DNA from: Streptomyces sp. NBC_00285 | GTDB lineage: Bacteria; Actinomycetota; Actinomycetes; Streptomycetales; Streptomycetaceae | Direction: 5' to 3' | Length of the DNA stretch: 64,000 bases | NCBI RefSeq assembly: GCF_036174265.1 | Contig: NZ_CP108055.1 | Span: 992,001-1,056,000 of the forward strand | Shown: one piece after another, positions 8,131-58,890 of the stretch | Layout of the letters: each line of letters starts with the position of its first letter | Position numbering within the stretch: the first letter of the stretch is position 1 | Notes under the pieces: generated by a model | What the model was told of the DNA's origin: nothing | The model's input: the letters and a program-made list of their open reading frames with translations, nothing else | Databases searched by the model: none | Program-made: the position numbers and the translations under genes

Positions 8131-9057
8131 ATGGATCTCGACGCCGTACGCACCTTCGTCGCCGTGGCGGACGCGGGGCGCTTCCAGGAGGCCGCCGACC
8201 GGCTGGCCATCACCCAGCAGGCCGTGTCCAAGCGGGTCGCCGCGCTGGAGAAGGACCTCGGCGCCCGGCTGTTCACCCGCACTCCGCGCGGTGCCCGGCT
8301 CACCATCGACGGCCAGGCGTTCCTGCCGCACGCCCGCGATCTCCTGAGAGCCGCGGAACGGGCGGCCGCCTCGGTACGGCCGGGCAGCCGGGCCCTGCGC
8401 GTCGACGTGATCGGCCGCCGGCTCGCCCCCGCGGAGCTGCTGCGCGCCTTCCACCGCGCGCACCCCGACATCGAGCTCGACGTCGTCACCCTCTTCGACG
8501 CCGACGCGGCCCTCGCCGCCCTGCGGGACGGCACGATCGACGCCTCCTTCCGTGCCGTCCCGCACTCCGCCCGGCAGTCGCCCGACGGCATCACGTCCGA
8601 ACGGGTCTACGACGAACCGATCCAGCTGCTCACCGGCCCGGACCACAAGCTGGCGGCCGCCCGCACGGTGGATCCGACCCGGCTGGCCGGGCACCGCATC
8701 TGGATGCCCGGCCTCGTCACCGGCACCGAATGGGGTACCTACTACGACGACCTCGCCGCCGCCTTCGACCTCACCATCGAGGTCACCGGCCCCGACTTCG
8801 GCACCGACCCCCTCCTCGACACGATCGCCGACTCCTCGACCCTGGCCACCTTCGTCGGCGAACTGACCCGCCTGGTCTGGCCATCCGACCAGGACCTGCG
8901 CCGCATCCCGGTGCACGGCCCCACACCGATCTACCCCCACTCCCTCATCTGGCGCGCCGACAACCCGCACCCGACCCTCGACGCCCTCAGATCCCACCTG
9001 GCCACGACCCGGCCCGAGCCCCCGGACACCGGCATGTGGACACCGAGCTGGGCCTGA
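8131..9057 (+). CDS. LysR family transcriptional regulator
   Basis: A 308-residue LysR protein. The winged helix-turn-helix is at residues 1-60 (FQEAADRLAITQQAVSKRVAALEKDLG), and the effector domain follows (about 88-300). The first residues (MDLDAVRTFVAVADAG) are canonical, so the ATG at 8131 is secure. No strong ribosome site precedes it, and a TAGGCT hexamer lies 11 bases upstream, so the leader is short or absent. Divergent from the MFS exporter and next to two operator copies, it most likely senses a small compound and controls that exporter. Confidence 0.88.
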   Translation: MDLDAVRTFVAVADAGRFQEAADRLAITQQAVSKRVAALEKDLGARLFTRTPRGARLTIDGQAFLPHARDLLRAAERAAASVRPGSRALRVDVIGRRLAPAELLRAFHRAHPDIELDVVTLFDADAALAALRDGTIDASFRAVPHSARQSPDGITSERVYDEPIQLLTGPDHKLAAARTVDPTRLAGHRIWMPGLVTGTEWGTYYDDLAAAFDLTIEVTGPDFGTDPLLDTIADSSTLATFVGELTRLVWPSDQDLRRIPVHGPTPIYPHSLIWRADNPHPTLDALRSHLATTRPEPPDTGMWTPSWA

Positions 9058-10566: not shown

Positions 10567-11301
10567 TTACCGCTCGGCCGGCCGTGCCGCGAGGAAGGCG
10601 GTCCTGCGGCGCAGCCGGAAGCCGAGGGACTCGTACAGCCGGATGGCGCCGGTGTTGCGGGCAGCGGTGTGCAGGAACGGAGTCTCGCCGCGCTCGCGTA
10701 TGCCGTGCGCGACGGCCAGAACCAGCCGCGTCGCGAGACCCTGGCCGCGGACGGCGGGGTCGGTGCAGACGGCGCTGATCTCGGTCCAGCCCGGCGGGTG
10801 CAGCCGCTCGCCCGCCAGCGCGACGAGGGCGCCTTCCCGGCGGATGCCCAGATAGGTGCCCATCTCGATGGTGCGGGGCAGGAACGGGCCGGGCTGGGTC
10901 CGTTCGATCAGGTCGAGGATCTCGGGCACGTCGGCGGGGCCGAGGCGGACCGCCTCCGGATCGGGTGCGGCTGCGATGCCGTCGTCCACCAGCTGCACGC
11001 CCTCGATGTGGAAGGTGATCTCCCAGTCGTCCGGCACGGTGCCCGTGTAGCCGGCCAGCGGCACCTCGATGCCGGGGCCGGCGAGCGCTGCGAGGTCGGC
11101 CCAGTCACCGGCGTCGGGCACGTCCGGCATAGCCAGCCACGGGGACACGTCGGCGGGGTAGCGCAGGACCCGGCCGCGCTTCTCGGCGAAGTGGGCGTGC
11201 GGGCCGGTCAGGGAGGCGAGAGCAGGGTTGTCGAGGACATGCGAGCCCGGTGCGTCCCCGTAGGGCGCTTCTTCGTGCGGATGCCTTACCTGGTCGCTCA
11301 T
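10567..11301 (-). CDS. GNAT family N-acetyltransferase
   Basis: A 244-residue protein whose C-terminal half is a GNAT (FR47-like) fold. TEISAVCTDPAVRGQGLATRLV is motif A with the acetyl-CoA-binding R-G-Q-G-L-A, and NTGAIRLYESLGF is motif B. The N-terminal 110 residues are a less conserved arm seen in related predicted acyltransferases. The ATG overlaps the stop of the upstream 42-codon ORF (ATGA), so translation is coupled. The substrate is unknown. Confidence 0.82.
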   Translation of the reverse strand: MSDQVRHPHEEAPYGDAPGSHVLDNPALASLTGPHAHFAEKRGRVLRYPADVSPWLAMPDVPDAGDWADLAALAGPGIEVPLAGYTGTVPDDWEITFHIEGVQLVDDGIAAAPDPEAVRLGPADVPEILDLIERTQPGPFLPRTIEMGTYLGIRREGALVALAGERLHPPGWTEISAVCTDPAVRGQGLATRLVLAVAHGIRERGETPFLHTAARNTGAIRLYESLGFRLRRRTAFLAARPAER

Positions 11302-54645: not shown

Positions 54646-54669
54646 TTGCCAGCTTGCGCAACTGTACAA
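54646..54669 (-). promoter_or_regulatory. TTGCGCAA-type dyad operator, tatA promoter
   Basis: Minus strand: TTG-TACAG-TTGCGCAA-GCTGG-CAA, a complete extended dyad. The hexamer TACAGT is a good -10 and sits within the dyad, so a bound protein would cover -10 to +1 of tatA. About 30 bases separate it from the tatA ATG. Confidence 0.6.
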
Positions 54670-54689
54670 CCACAGACCCCGTCCCCACC

Positions 54690-56393
54690 TCAGTCGTCGG
54701 AGTCCTTCTTGTTGGTCGCCGCCGCGTAGGCCTGCGCGGGAGTCATGGGGACCCCGTTGAGGGAGACGGTCTTGTAGGGGCTGACCTTGGCGCAGTCCTT
54801 TGCCTGGTCGGCGGTCTGGGCGTTGGCGTCGGAGACCGCGGCCTTGGTGTCGGCGGGCGCCGGTGACGAGCTGCCGCCGGGATACGCGGTTCCGGTGGTC
54901 CAGTCGCCGCCGATCACCAGGGTCAGGCCCGTACCGGTGCCCTGCTGGAGATGCTTGGACGACAGCCCCAGGGCCTTGGCTGCCGTCTGGGCCTCGGCCT
55001 TCTGCCCGGTGCCGTAGGTGAGGGTGGTGGTCGCCGAAGGGCTCGGCGCGTTGGCCGTGGTCGTGGCGGAGCTGAAGCCCTGACCGGTGAGCGCGTTGGC
55101 GACGTCGGAGGCGCGGCCGGTGATCTCGGTGCCGTTCTCGACGGTCACGGCGATCCGGGAGGCGGGCACCGTCGAGGCGGTGGCCGTCGAGGTGGCCTTC
55201 GCCTTCTTGCCGGAGCCGGTACTCAGGGACTGGTCGCCGGCGATGCTGGCGAAGAGGTCCTTGGCACCCCCGCCCACCACCACACGGTTGGTGTCGCTCG
55301 GGTCGGGAGCGGTCTGCATCGTGGTGAACGTCATCCGCTTGGTGGGGACCTTGTTCACGTCGGCCGCGAGCCCGATCAGCTTCTTGACGCTGCCGAGGCC
55401 GTCGTCCACGGTCAGTGCCTTGGTGGCGGCGTCGGCGAGGTCGTAGACCGCGGCGGGGTCGGTGAGCGTGCCCGCGCTCTTGAACTTGCGGATCATCGCG
55501 CCGAGGAAGATGTGCTGGGAGAGCGTACGACCGAGGTCGCTGCCGTCCCCGAATCCGTGCCGGGAGCGGACGAACTCCAGAGCCGCCTCCCCCTTGAGGG
55601 TGTGGGTGCCCCTGGAGAGCTTCAGATGCGAGTAGGTGTCGTACACGTTGTTGTTGACACACACGGAGACACCGCCGACCGCGTCGGACATCTTGACCAC
55701 ACCGGAGAAGTCCAGCTTGACGAAGTGGTCGATGGGGATGCCGGTGAGCTGGTGGATGGTGGCCACCTGGCAGGCGGGTCCGTACCGGAGGGCGCTGTTG
55801 ATCTGGCCGTAGTAGCCGGCCGTGGACTCGCCGTTCTCGCTGTCCTTGCAGGCCGGGACGTTGACCATGGTGTCGCGGGGGATGCTCATGACGGTGGCGT
55901 TGGAGCGGTCCGCGGATACGTGCACCACCATCTGGACGTCCGCGTTGCCGTTGCCGGTCTGTACGCCGGTCTGGGAGCAGCCGCCGCCCAGCTTGCAGTC
56001 CGCCTTGCTGGTCCGGCCGTCCGAGCCCATGACCAGGATGTTGATCGGGGTGCGGCCGAACGCGTCGGCCGTCTCCGAACCGCCCTTGCCGTTGAGCGCC
56101 ACACTGTTGATGTTGCCGTTGAGGTGCTGGTAGAACCACCAGCCCACACCTGCCGTACCCAGGACGATGATCGCCAGAGACAGTCCGGCGATCTTCAGTA
56201 TTCGCCTGCCGCGCGGCGCCGAGCGGGCCCGGCGCCGTGAGCGTTTGCCGCCGTGCGAGCGGGCCGCCTCACGCGCCGCCGCACGGCCCCCGGGCCGGGG
56301 CGCCGAGCCGGATTCACCCGCACGCTGGCCGGGCACCTCGCCGGTGCGGCTGCGCGTGGCCTGACCGCCCGGGCCGTCCCACCGGTCGCTCAT
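54690..56393 (-). CDS. LytR-CpsA-Psr (LCP) family cell wall ligase
   Basis: A 567-residue membrane protein. The basic N-terminus is cytoplasmic; a helix (about 66-86, LKIAGLSLAIIVLGTAGVG) is followed by the LCP domain (about 115-290) with INILVMGSDGR, VMSIPRDTMVNVP and LEFVRSRHGFGDGSDLGR, all conserved phosphoprenyl-binding residues. A LytR_C domain (about 410-500, IAVTVENGTEITGRASDVAN) is at the end. LCP enzymes transfer secondary wall polymers to peptidoglycan. GGGAGTGG precedes the ATG. The promoter has the TTGCGCAA dyad. Confidence 0.9.
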   Translation of the reverse strand: MSDRWDGPGGQATRSRTGEVPGQRAGESGSAPRPGGRAAAREAARSHGGKRSRRRARSAPRGRRILKIAGLSLAIIVLGTAGVGWWFYQHLNGNINSVALNGKGGSETADAFGRTPINILVMGSDGRTSKADCKLGGGCSQTGVQTGNGNADVQMVVHVSADRSNATVMSIPRDTMVNVPACKDSENGESTAGYYGQINSALRYGPACQVATIHQLTGIPIDHFVKLDFSGVVKMSDAVGGVSVCVNNNVYDTYSHLKLSRGTHTLKGEAALEFVRSRHGFGDGSDLGRTLSQHIFLGAMIRKFKSAGTLTDPAAVYDLADAATKALTVDDGLGSVKKLIGLAADVNKVPTKRMTFTTMQTAPDPSDTNRVVVGGGAKDLFASIAGDQSLSTGSGKKAKATSTATASTVPASRIAVTVENGTEITGRASDVANALTGQGFSSATTTANAPSPSATTTLTYGTGQKAEAQTAAKALGLSSKHLQQGTGTGLTLVIGGDWTTGTAYPGGSSSPAPADTKAAVSDANAQTADQAKDCAKVSPYKTVSLNGVPMTPAQAYAAATNKKDSDD

Positions 56394-56498
56394 CTACCAC
56401 TCCCACGAAACGGTCGGGCTCGTCAGGCCGGGCCTAGGGGTGGGCGGCCGGGCGTGCGCGGCGGTGTACAGGCAGGCCAAGCAGGAACCTCGCCTGGG

Positions 56499-56522
56499 TT
56501 GCGTAGTTGCGCAATCTAACAA
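56499..56522 (-). promoter_or_regulatory. TTGCGCAA-type dyad operator, LCP promoter
   Basis: Minus strand: TTG-TTAGA-TTGCGCAA-CTACG-CAA, a complete extended dyad. TAGATT within it is the likely -10. The LCP start codon lies about 106 bases downstream, giving a long leader. Confidence 0.6.
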
Positions 56523-56653
56523 ACCCATGACCCTGCCAGCACAGAGCCCGCCGCAATTCACAGGTGAGGCATCTCATGGAGAAACGCGGCAACCTCTGGG
56601 ACGTCTCCGCAATCCCGGCCCGGCTCGCCTTCACCCGGTCCGCACGGGGCGGA

Positions 56654-57007
56654 TCAAGGCCTGCGCGAGGCAGTGCGGTGCGCGGCCGGGACGGTACGGG
56701 CGGTCAACTGGCCGACCAGCACGCGGACCACGGCCACGATGCCGGGATCGTCGATGTAGTAGACATGCCGACGGCCCTCACGGCGGGAGCGCACGAGCCC
56801 GGCGAGTTTCAGCTTCGCCAGGTGCTGGCTGACCGCGGGCAGCGCCCCGCCCACCCGGTCGGCGAGATGGGTCACGTCGCTCTCCCCCTGGGAGAGCGCC
56901 CACATGAGGTGCAGCCGGGCGGACGAGGCGAGCAGTCCGAACACCGCGGCCGCCTCCGTCAGTACCTCGGCGGACGGATCCTCTAAGTCACCAGCGAGTG
57001 TCGCCAC
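56654..57007 (-). CDS. ArsR/SmtB family transcriptional regulator
   Basis: A 117-residue winged-helix dimer. The core is FGLLASSARLHLMWALSQGE, VTHLADRVGGALPAVSQHLA (recognition helix) and the wing VRSRREGRRHVYYIDDPGIV. The alpha3 position that holds ELCVCDL in metal-sensing ArsR is SQGESDVTHL here, without cysteine, so the effector may not be a thiophilic metal. The GTG at 57007 has GGAGAGG before it. A TTGCGCAA dyad in its own promoter and three others nearby suggests this is the regulator that binds them; that is inferred. Confidence 0.82.
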   Translation of the reverse strand: MATLAGDLEDPSAEVLTEAAAVFGLLASSARLHLMWALSQGESDVTHLADRVGGALPAVSQHLAKLKLAGLVRSRREGRRHVYYIDDPGIVAVVRVLVGQLTARTVPAAHRTASRRP

Positions 57008-57099
57008 AACCCTCTCCTGCCCCGCCCCGGTCACTCTCAACGCACGTGCCCTGTCCCAGTGTAGGAGCTGCGGCCAGCGCCCGGAGAGGGTGCTGCCGG

Positions 57100-57123
57100 T
57101 TCATCGCTTGCGCAATGTAATAA
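57100..57123 (-). promoter_or_regulatory. TTGCGCAA-type dyad operator, arsR promoter
   Basis: Minus strand: TTA-TTACA-TTGCGCAA-GCGAT-GAA. The core is perfect and the outer triplets are degenerate. TACATT is the likely -10. The start GTG is about 93 bases downstream. Confidence 0.5.
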
Positions 57124-57195
57124 GCGTGTGAAAGAACATCGACGACTTGTCACCAGCCACCAACTCGCCTCGCTCTCCCTCCTGTCAGTCTCTAG

Positions 57196-58868
57196 CCTCG
57201 ATCGTTCATGAGGGTCCGTCAGCTTGCTGACGGGCCCTTTGTTGTCGGACGTGGTGGAGTTTTCACGGTGCGGTCAGGCTGATGGCCCGGCTCTCGCGTC
57301 GGGTAGGCGCCGGGTTCCACTGCCCGGTGTGGTGATGCGGGTTGTCGGGATGGGTGAAGTGGCTGGTCAGCCGGGGTTCGGCAGGGCAAGGAGCCGCTCG
57401 ATTGCGTAGGTGATGACGTCGCTCCAGGGCCATCGGGCGGGCAGGCGGAGCCAGCGGCGGCGGCCCGTGTTCACGAACTGGGCGGCGGCGGAGAACAGCC
57501 GCAGGCGAAGCCGTTTGGGTTCCCAGCGGCGGGTCTTGCCGGTCAGGGCGAGCATGGGCATCCAGGCGAGGAGGTCGAGTGCGAGGGAGACGATCTCCAG
57601 CCAGATCCGGTTCTGGGCGGTGTCGTGCAGGGGCAGGTTGCGCAGGCCGCTGTCGCGGGCGTTTCGGATGCGGTCCTCGCAGCGGGCCCGTCTGCGGTGA
57701 CGCAGTTCGAGGCCGGCGAGTTGGCCGCCCTTGGTGTTGGTGGCGAAGCAGGTCAGCCGTAGTCCGTCGAGGTCGGTGAAGCGCAGCTGGGCGCCGGGGT
57801 GCGGGCGTTCCTTTCTGACGATCAGCCGCATGCCCTTGGGCCAGGTGCTCAGGTCGGGCATGTCGGTGATCTCTGCGACCCAGGCGCCGGGCCGTTCGGT
57901 GCCGCCGGCGTCGTAGGCCGGTGTCCATGCTTTCTTCGGGATCTTCAGGACGGCTTGGTGGATGGTGTCGGTGATGGTCATTCCGACGGAATACGACAGC
58001 CACCGGCCAGGCTTGGAGAGCCAGTCGAGGAAGGCGTGGGTGCCGCCGGCGGAGTCGGTGCGGATCAGTGTCTGCCGCCCTCGCCGCAGGTGTCCGGGGA
58101 GTTGGGCCAGGGCGAGTTGGGCGGTTTCGATGTGGTCGGTGGCGGTGTTGGAGCCTGCGTTGCCGGGCCGCAGCAGAGCGGCCACCGGTTCCCCGGAGCC
58201 GGCCTGGCCGTGGTCGACGAACGCGACGAGCGGGTGATGGCCGAAGGTCTTCTTCCAGGTCGCGGTGGCGTCCTGCTTCTCGGAGTGGGCGAGCACCAGT
58301 ACGCCGTCGATGTCCACGATCACCTGGCCGTCGGCGGCCGGGCTGTCCGCGCCGGCCAACTCCCACACGCGCGTCCGTACTTCGGCACGTGCGCCCCTGA
58401 TCGCCGCGAGAGCCTTCGGGCCGGACGTGGCGAGGGCGTCGACGAGCCGGGAGACCGTCGGATCGGAGGCCACCGGGCCGAACACGTCGGGCTCGGCCCG
58501 CAGCATGGCGACATCGGCCAGGCAGTCGCCGCCGAGTGCGACGGCCAGGGCCACATCCAGCAGGATCTTGCCCGGGTCGTGCACGGTCCGCGGCTTGCGC
58601 CACGGTGCCAGCGCCGCCGATATTGCCGTGTCCAGGCCGACCTTGCGGACCGTTTCGACCAGCAGCACCGCCCCGGCCTGCGAGACCACCCCACGGCTGC
58701 TGCCCTCGACACGGACACGCGGATAGGACCCGCTACGCTTCTTCACCTGGAGAGTGCTTCTTTCCTTGCAGCTGACAGGACCCTCGACAAGTCCCATCGT
58801 TGCAGGTCAGCGGCACTCTCCATTTATTTGATCAAGACCCGGACAGGCCCACTCGCGAAAGCGCGAGG
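57196..58868 (-). mobile_element. IS1380-family insertion sequence
   Basis: The 1,673-bp element has imperfect terminal inverted repeats beginning CCTCG on each end (left 57196-57200; right CGAGG 58864-58868), about 14 of 22 positions matching. It is flanked by 4-bp direct repeats CTAG at 57192-57195 and 58869-58872, as expected for IS1380 target duplication. The single gene inside is intact. It has inserted between the arsR and glsB-type genes, 2 bp before the latter's dyad core. Confidence 0.82.
57367..58797 (-). CDS. IS1380 family transposase
   Basis: A 476-residue DDE transposase. GQVIVDIDGVLVLAHSEKQD carries the first aspartate, LIRTDSAGGTHAFLDWLSK the second, and the later RCEDRIRNARDSGLRNLPLH region the glutamate motif. 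The C-terminal part (AWMPMLALTGKTRRWEPKRL) is typical of the family. The frame is unbroken, so the element may still move. The ATG at 58797 lacks a good ribosome site; a GTG at codon 18, before KKRSGSYPRV, is an alternative start. Confidence 0.9.
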   Translation of the reverse strand: MGLVEGPVSCKERSTLQVKKRSGSYPRVRVEGSSRGVVSQAGAVLLVETVRKVGLDTAISAALAPWRKPRTVHDPGKILLDVALAVALGGDCLADVAMLRAEPDVFGPVASDPTVSRLVDALATSGPKALAAIRGARAEVRTRVWELAGADSPAADGQVIVDIDGVLVLAHSEKQDATATWKKTFGHHPLVAFVDHGQAGSGEPVAALLRPGNAGSNTATDHIETAQLALAQLPGHLRRGRQTLIRTDSAGGTHAFLDWLSKPGRWLSYSVGMTITDTIHQAVLKIPKKAWTPAYDAGGTERPGAWVAEITDMPDLSTWPKGMRLIVRKERPHPGAQLRFTDLDGLRLTCFATNTKGGQLAGLELRHRRRARCEDRIRNARDSGLRNLPLHDTAQNRIWLEIVSLALDLLAWMPMLALTGKTRRWEPKRLRLRLFSAAAQFVNTGRRRWLRLPARWPWSDVITYAIERLLALPNPG

Positions 58869-58890
58869 CTAGGCTTGCGCAATCAGGCAA
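58867..58890 (+). promoter_or_regulatory. TTGCGCAA-type dyad operator, glsB-type promoter
   Basis: Plus strand: TAGGC-TTGCGCAA-TCAGG-CAA, with the left outer triplet absent. TAGGCT (58870-58875) is the likely -10. The left flank now consists of IS1380 end sequence up to 58868 plus the CTAG duplication, so the -35 has been replaced by IS DNA. Confidence 0.5.

Follow-up and report, generated by a model that had tools for sequence, protein, structure and literature searches.

A palindromic dyad in envelope gene promoters as the probable operator of an ArsR-type protein in Streptomyces

A 64-kb stretch of the Streptomyces sp. NBC_00285 genome (64,000 nucleotides, hereafter the window) carries four copies of the sequence TTGCGCAA, the core of a 24-bp dyad of the form TTG-N5-TTGCGCAA-N5-CAA, within 4.2 kb and in the promoters of a tatA-type gene, a LytR-CpsA-Psr (LCP) glycopolymer ligase gene, an arsR gene and a glsB gene. 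Judged from sequence comparison, this dyad is probably the operator of an ArsR-type repressor, namely the product of the gene at 56654-57007 together with its orthologues, which would control tatA, LCP, glsB, terD and a gene coding for a 77-amino-acid orphan protein. The conservation of the sites, their gene targets, their co-occurrence with ArsR and their overlap with promoter-like elements were computed directly.

The dyad and its putative target genes

In the window, TTGCGCAA was found at positions 54654, 56507, 57108 and 58875 and nowhere else, and every copy lies in a promoter and is accompanied by a TANNNT hexamer, as a preliminary description of this DNA had stated. Dinucleotide shuffling (100 shuffles) predicted a mean of 0.32 and at most three copies per window, and since the complete 10.3 Mb genome holds just 51 copies, four of them in 4.2 kb represent a real cluster; a chance origin was ruled out by the shuffles, the genome-wide counts and the conservation across 150 Streptomyces genomes. 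The genome has two exact dyads, both inside the window, and no match to the reversed control. The sites of tatA (54646) and LCP (56499) have no mismatch to the dyad, that of arsR (57100) has two (TTC...TAA) and that of glsB (58867) has three, its left arm being lost. The two full dyads described earlier were thus recovered, but the arsR copy, which had been regarded as a core only, retains four of the six arm bases. Outside the window, 46 cores were inspected among 50 listed of the 51 genomic copies, and four of them preserve 4/6 arm bases in the TTG/CAA or TTC/GAA form. Two belong to a second arsR-mgtA locus (5.84 Mb), where they lie at the mgtA 3′ end and upstream of the 77-amino-acid gene; a third is located within a further LCP gene, and the fourth is at 7.69 Mb.

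The scan of a first set of 150 Streptomyces genomes with the exact dyad revealed 65 sites in 47 genomes, and the reversed control matched one genome. The genes directed away from these dyads and no more than 900 bp distant comprised a tatA relative at 27 sites, an LCP relative at 18, one of each at 17 and neither kind at three. Therefore, 62 of the 65 sites, picked by motif alone, are upstream of tatA and/or LCP, and the matches in this genome and in related Streptomyces stay with the gene families that had been predicted. Of the three remaining dyads, one is upstream of tatC (L161), one adjoins an ftsW/rodA-type gene (L168) and one adjoins genes encoding an SLT-domain and a DUF7144 protein (L172). 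Those at position 4530 of L168 (ftsW/rodA-type) and 4467 of L172 (SLT transglycosylase/DUF7144) may represent additional envelope targets. An alternative pattern, which had TA in its arms and allowed three mismatches at most, matched 44/150 genomes against eight for its reversed control; it was discarded in favour of the dyad of the preliminary description, because it missed true sites and added a doubtful one in G036.

The target set was characterized further in loci collected around ArsR or the dyad, which were not de-duplicated by genome. Among 169 cores with at least five of the six arm bases in these selected loci, 145 are upstream of LCP, tatA, terD, glsB, arsR or the 77-amino-acid gene, 13 of other genes and 11 of no called gene. 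With a weight matrix built from sites that are not located at arsR, a site (score >10) was detected upstream of 93% of 70 tatA, 91% of 32 glsB, 87% of 30 orphan, 54% of 52 terD and 49% of 85 LCP genes, versus 2.7% of 1239 other genes; the tatA, LCP and terD percentages count training sites as well, and LCP starts are frequently called too far downstream. The proposed targets tatA, LCP and glsB were recovered in this way, and terD and the orphan gene, which had been overlooked, join them.

Co-occurrence of the dyad with an ArsR orthologue

Genomes were considered ArsR-positive when they encoded a match to the window ArsR at E≤1e-33, a cut-off picked after a gap had been seen in the first set. 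By this definition, 50 of the 150 genomes were ArsR-positive and comprised all 47 genomes with the dyad, and the exact dyad was found in none of the 100 others (Fisher 1e-34, with G010, which has a partial ArsR match, counted as positive; this value is too optimistic because the genomes are related). In a hold-out of 238 further Streptomyces genomes, with the same cut-off fixed beforehand, the exact dyad was present in 77 of 88 ArsR-positive versus 2 of 150 ArsR-negative genomes. Both exceptions carry a damaged arsR. In G321 (L298, near 8657-8805), ArsR residues 1-25 and 101-115 are kept and the middle is gone, and the tatA, LCP, glsB and arsR operators are intact; in G287 (L299, near 10582-10880), ArsR is broken across two frames and the dyad is intact. 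Either damage could be a natural loss or an error of assembly; in the former case, the two genomes would provide natural comparison strains. Moreover, of the 11 ArsR-positive hold-out genomes that lack the exact dyad, nine show a weight-matrix site (score >12) in the stretch around arsR, and a core with at least five arm bases was found in 61 of 80 named loci (stretches of 5-14 kb). Three less related ArsR genes from ArsR-negative Streptomyces had no TTGCGCAA in 9.5 kb. In both genome sets the sites track the ArsR orthologue, which favours the earlier suggestion of a single ArsR-linked envelope regulon.

The 42 best tatA matches, paired by hand, provided a further comparison: a close upstream exact dyad was present in 34/39 from ArsR-positive versus 0/3 from ArsR-negative genomes (Fisher 0.005). 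Relatives of tatA at 13 loci in ArsR-negative genomes (55-80% identical) had no site; four of these adjoin tatC and are possibly a different copy, and the nine away from tatC are the fairest controls. The dyad as a mere property of tatA genes was rejected on the basis of these 13 relatives, a control made imperfect by the four tatC-adjacent copies and by seven tatA copies of ArsR-positive genomes that are likewise without a site. Since ArsR-negative and tatC-adjacent tatA copies lack the site, the dyad is confined, among tatA genes, to one type.

The relation between ArsR and the dyad also extends beyond the genus. The exact dyad was found in 0 of 20 genomes of the same order outside Streptomyces. 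Seven of the 20, which belong to a single genus in another family, carry an ArsR with 52-61% identity. Each of them has, upstream of arsR, a TTGCGCAA core flanked by TCAA/TTGA arms (one arm is altered in G025 and G028), and its right arm merges into a TTGAGT-like –35 element. In five of these seven stretches, mgtA is the gene called immediately downstream of arsR, and the 5.5-8.5 kb around arsR contained no called tatA or LCP gene. In other genera of the same family as Streptomyces, weight-matrix sites were observed upstream of arsR-mgtA in G395 and upstream of an LCP gene adjoining arsR-mgtA in G327.

Several observations weigh against ArsR as the factor acting on these sites. The related genomes are not independent, and the hold-out search scored only 15 candidates per genome. 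No site was found in 19 kb around arsR in the ArsR-positive genomes G214 and G269, no exact-core site near arsR in G040, no core in 9 kb in G304 (which falls below the cut-off and has an arsR-like gene adjoining mgtA) and no core within 5-14 kb in 14 of the 80 named loci. Conversely, G092 has an LCP site with 5/6 arm bases and no ArsR remnant in the translated stretch, its glsB site being decayed. Seven tatA copies in ArsR-positive genomes, six of them adjoining tatC, have no site. By the weight matrix, in loci not de-duplicated by genome, 100 of 123 arsR upstream regions are without a site, which is unusual for an ArsR, and so are all 72 mgtA upstream regions. Finally, part of the co-occurrence between dyad and ArsR is physical linkage, because ArsR and its putative targets are often neighbours.

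These last points suit an explanation in which the dyad is bound by a different transcription factor that all Streptomyces possess, and ArsR merely travels with the targets as part of an accessory gene set, since ArsR and targets are usually clustered and most arsR genes have no site upstream. However, 13 of the 65 exact dyads are on a contig without a close ArsR or megabases away from arsR; most of these are in draft assemblies, where the true distance is uncertain, but G080 is a single contig in which the LCP site (1.75 Mb) is remote from arsR (9.0 Mb). The tatA relatives in ArsR-negative genomes also have no site, and in the other family the dyad is upstream of arsR, where neither tatA nor LCP was called nearby. 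This explanation was judged unlikely.

Promoter geometry, autoregulation and the ArsR protein

The position of the dyad relative to promoter elements differs among targets. A TANNNT hexamer abuts the core in 65/74 LCP, 59/65 tatA and 24/44 glsB sites, and in 9/34 arsR, 1/21 orphan and 0/34 terD sites. The sequence GGAAC-N17/18-CGTT/C, which resembles the promoters of extracytoplasmic function (ECF) sigma factors, is overlapped by 23 of the 34 terD sites, and a SigE-like GGAAC at the right arm was found at terD only, with none among the LCP, tatA and glsB sites. The fixed abutment in the tatA, LCP and half of the glsB promoters could also mean that the palindrome serves a class of sigma factors as a core-promoter or initiation element and is not an operator. 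This possibility is very remote, since the abutment is missing at terD and nearly so at the orphan gene, 23 of the 34 terD sites overlap an ECF-like promoter instead, and a basic promoter element would not be missing from 103 of 150 genomes, as the exact dyad is. A single dyad placed over different promoter types is as expected of a repressor. The terD promoters, for example in L127, L136 and L137, look ECF-like with the dyad over the –35; because of this arrangement, terD may be under dual control.

The preliminary description had also proposed that ArsR represses itself. A site precedes 23 of the 123 arsR genes (19%), and general autorepression was rejected for most Streptomyces, given the regions without a site mentioned above. 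An operator before arsR itself was found in the window clade and at 7/7 loci of the other family, so that putative autoregulation fits these groups and is probably not general. The usual neighbour of arsR, absent from the preliminary description, is a Mg2+ P-type ATPase gene, which directly follows arsR in 43 of the 80 named loci, and a same-strand LCP gene does so in 19. This ATPase is of the magnesium-translocating type by TIGR01524 (L143, 673.1 bits; L315, 989.6 bits; cut-off 610.75). MgtA as a better correlate of the dyad than ArsR was rejected, since seven of the 47 dyad genomes have no close MgtA (E≤1e-150).

The window ArsR matches PF01022 (35.3 bits, cut-off 22) and NF033788 (77.3 bits, cut-off 55), and its recognition-helix region is near-invariant in 13 and in 28 aligned orthologues. 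Species that encode an orthologue include S. griseofuscus (DSM 40191) and S. rimosus. Metal sensors of the SmtB type carry the α5 motif D-x-H-x10-H-x2-[EH], a cysteine site being the alternative. The window protein has neither a Cys pair nor this motif; the reported lack of the usual metal cysteines was borne out, as it contains no Cys at all, and the α5 histidines are missing too. Among 152 distinct ArsR sequences, the motif is present in nine, comprising 7/7 from the other family and the less related Streptomyces L324 and L326, and is absent from the rest. By profile and by fold (predicted local distance difference test, 81.6), the nearest solved structures are those of SqrR (6o8k and others), followed by SmtB and CzrA. 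The SqrR/BigR-type ArsR repressors are thiol-sensing. Unlike them, the orthologues have no conserved Cys: the Cys pair of the SqrR/BigR persulfide sensors is absent, a SqrR Cys aligns with Trp36 of the window ArsR, any Cys in the first 105 residues occurs in 23/152 sequences, and the NF040642 BigR profile gave 40.2 bits, under its cut-off of 155.

The window protein shares with the ArsR/SmtB metalloregulators (SmtB, CzrA, NmtR, CmtR) the helix-turn-helix family, the fold and a dyad over promoter elements, and the other family adds a site before its own arsR, mgtA downstream in five of seven stretches and the α5 motif in the form D-x-H-x10-H-x2-E. The window protein differs from the metalloregulators in lacking the Cys and α5 sites and in its proposed envelope targets at multiple loci in place of one efflux operon. 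A tentative scenario, somewhat less probable than its negation, is that a metal-sensing ArsR which once repressed its own Mg2+ ATPase operon lost the α5 site in Streptomyces, kept its operator and was rewired to a dispersed envelope regulon (tatA, LCP, glsB, terD) under a new, non-metal wall or membrane signal. If so, it would be a case of an ArsR shedding its metal site while the operator core persists. Good support was obtained for 7/34 inner branches of the ArsR tree, which is thus poorly resolved and is not used for any conclusion.

The proposed circuit and the window locus

For the regulation itself, we infer binding, repression and a releasing signal as follows. An ArsR dimer would occupy the core TTGCGCAA and the outer arms, lying over the –10 at tatA, LCP, glsB and window-type arsR, over the –35 at terD and other-family arsR, and between the two at the orphan gene, and the bound protein would block RNA polymerase. 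Release triggered by a signal would then switch on a small envelope set composed of a TatA paralogue, the orphan protein, GlsB, TerD and an LCP ligase for wall polymers; the genomes concerned usually have a Mg2+ P-type ATPase gene adjoining arsR.

A second close arsR, 82% identical to the window copy, is located at 5.84 Mb in the same genome (G000 C1:5839743-5843303, L143) and is followed by mgtA and the 77-amino-acid orphan gene with its own TTGCGCAA; its product could bind the same sites. The existence of two close copies leaves some room for regulation solely by this paralogue, or ArsR might bind the dyad and activate. Both options, taken together, are improbable, given that the sites overlap the –10, the –35 or the spacer, as repressor sites do, and that the window copy shares the conserved recognition-helix region.

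The proposed repressor circuit can be compared with known envelope systems. In the PhoPQ-mgtA regulon of enterobacteria, a Mg2+ P-type ATPase is likewise tied to envelope genes; the Streptomyces system differs in its one-component ArsR, the absence of a sensor kinase and the lack of a dyad upstream of the 72 Streptomyces mgtA genes. SigE/CseBC, the Streptomyces envelope stress response (PMC7317143), also has a LytR-type wall gene as target, and here the difference is that GGAAC accompanies the terD sites alone. If confirmed, the circuit would constitute a one-component envelope regulon beside SigE/CseBC, in which a single small repressor links Tat export, the attachment of wall polymers, TerD and, as far as gene neighbourhood indicates, Mg2+ transport. 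It is apparently unreported, as no description was found in the open-licence literature, a scope outside which most subscription journals and preprints fall. According to Table 1 of one study, the LCP-type gene MAGL008579 and the terD gene MAGL008582 of S. albulus, near each other in locus numbering, are both upregulated under acid (PMC7317143); this induction is a lead only, and from that source membership in the cluster described here could not be shown.

The coordinates of the window locus are given in Table 1.

Table 1. Sites, genes and insertion at the window locus (positions in the window)
Feature	Position	Strand	Remarks
Full dyad, tatA promoter	54646..54669	-	-10-like TACAGT 54661-54666(-); same type upstream of tatA elsewhere
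Full dyad, LCP promoter	56499..56522	-	-10-like TAGATT 56513-56518(-); identical or near-identical upstream of LCP elsewhere
Imperfect dyad, arsR promoter	57100..57123	-	-10-like TACATT 57114-57119(-); shared with near relatives L121, L177, L181-L184
Half-armed dyad, glsB promoter	58867..58890	+	-10-like TAGGCT 58870-58875(+); conserved upstream of glsB
tatA-type gene, 76 amino acids	54387..54617	-	TIGR01411, NF001854 above cut-off
LCP glycopolymer ligase gene, LytR_C domain, 567 amino acids	54690..56393	-	Pfam/NCBIfam profiles
arsR, proposed repressor, 117 amino acids, no Cys, no α5 His motif	56654..57007	-	HTH_5, NF033788 above cut-off
IS1380-family transposase gene	57367..58797	-	NF033539 333.6 bits, cut-off 180
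glsB/Transgly_assoc membrane protein gene, 88 amino acids	58951..59217	+	PF04226
Insertion relative to G153, approximate limits	57161..58869	.	homology to L177 ends at 57160 and restarts at 58870

The gene identities assigned in the preliminary description agree with the Pfam/NCBIfam families TatA, LytR_cpsA_psr, ArsR HTH_5 and Transgly_assoc; it did not mention the IS1380 transposase gene that lies between the operator of arsR and that of glsB. These two operators are 90 bp apart in the relative G153, and the window copies are parted by the IS1380 insertion of ~1.7 kb.

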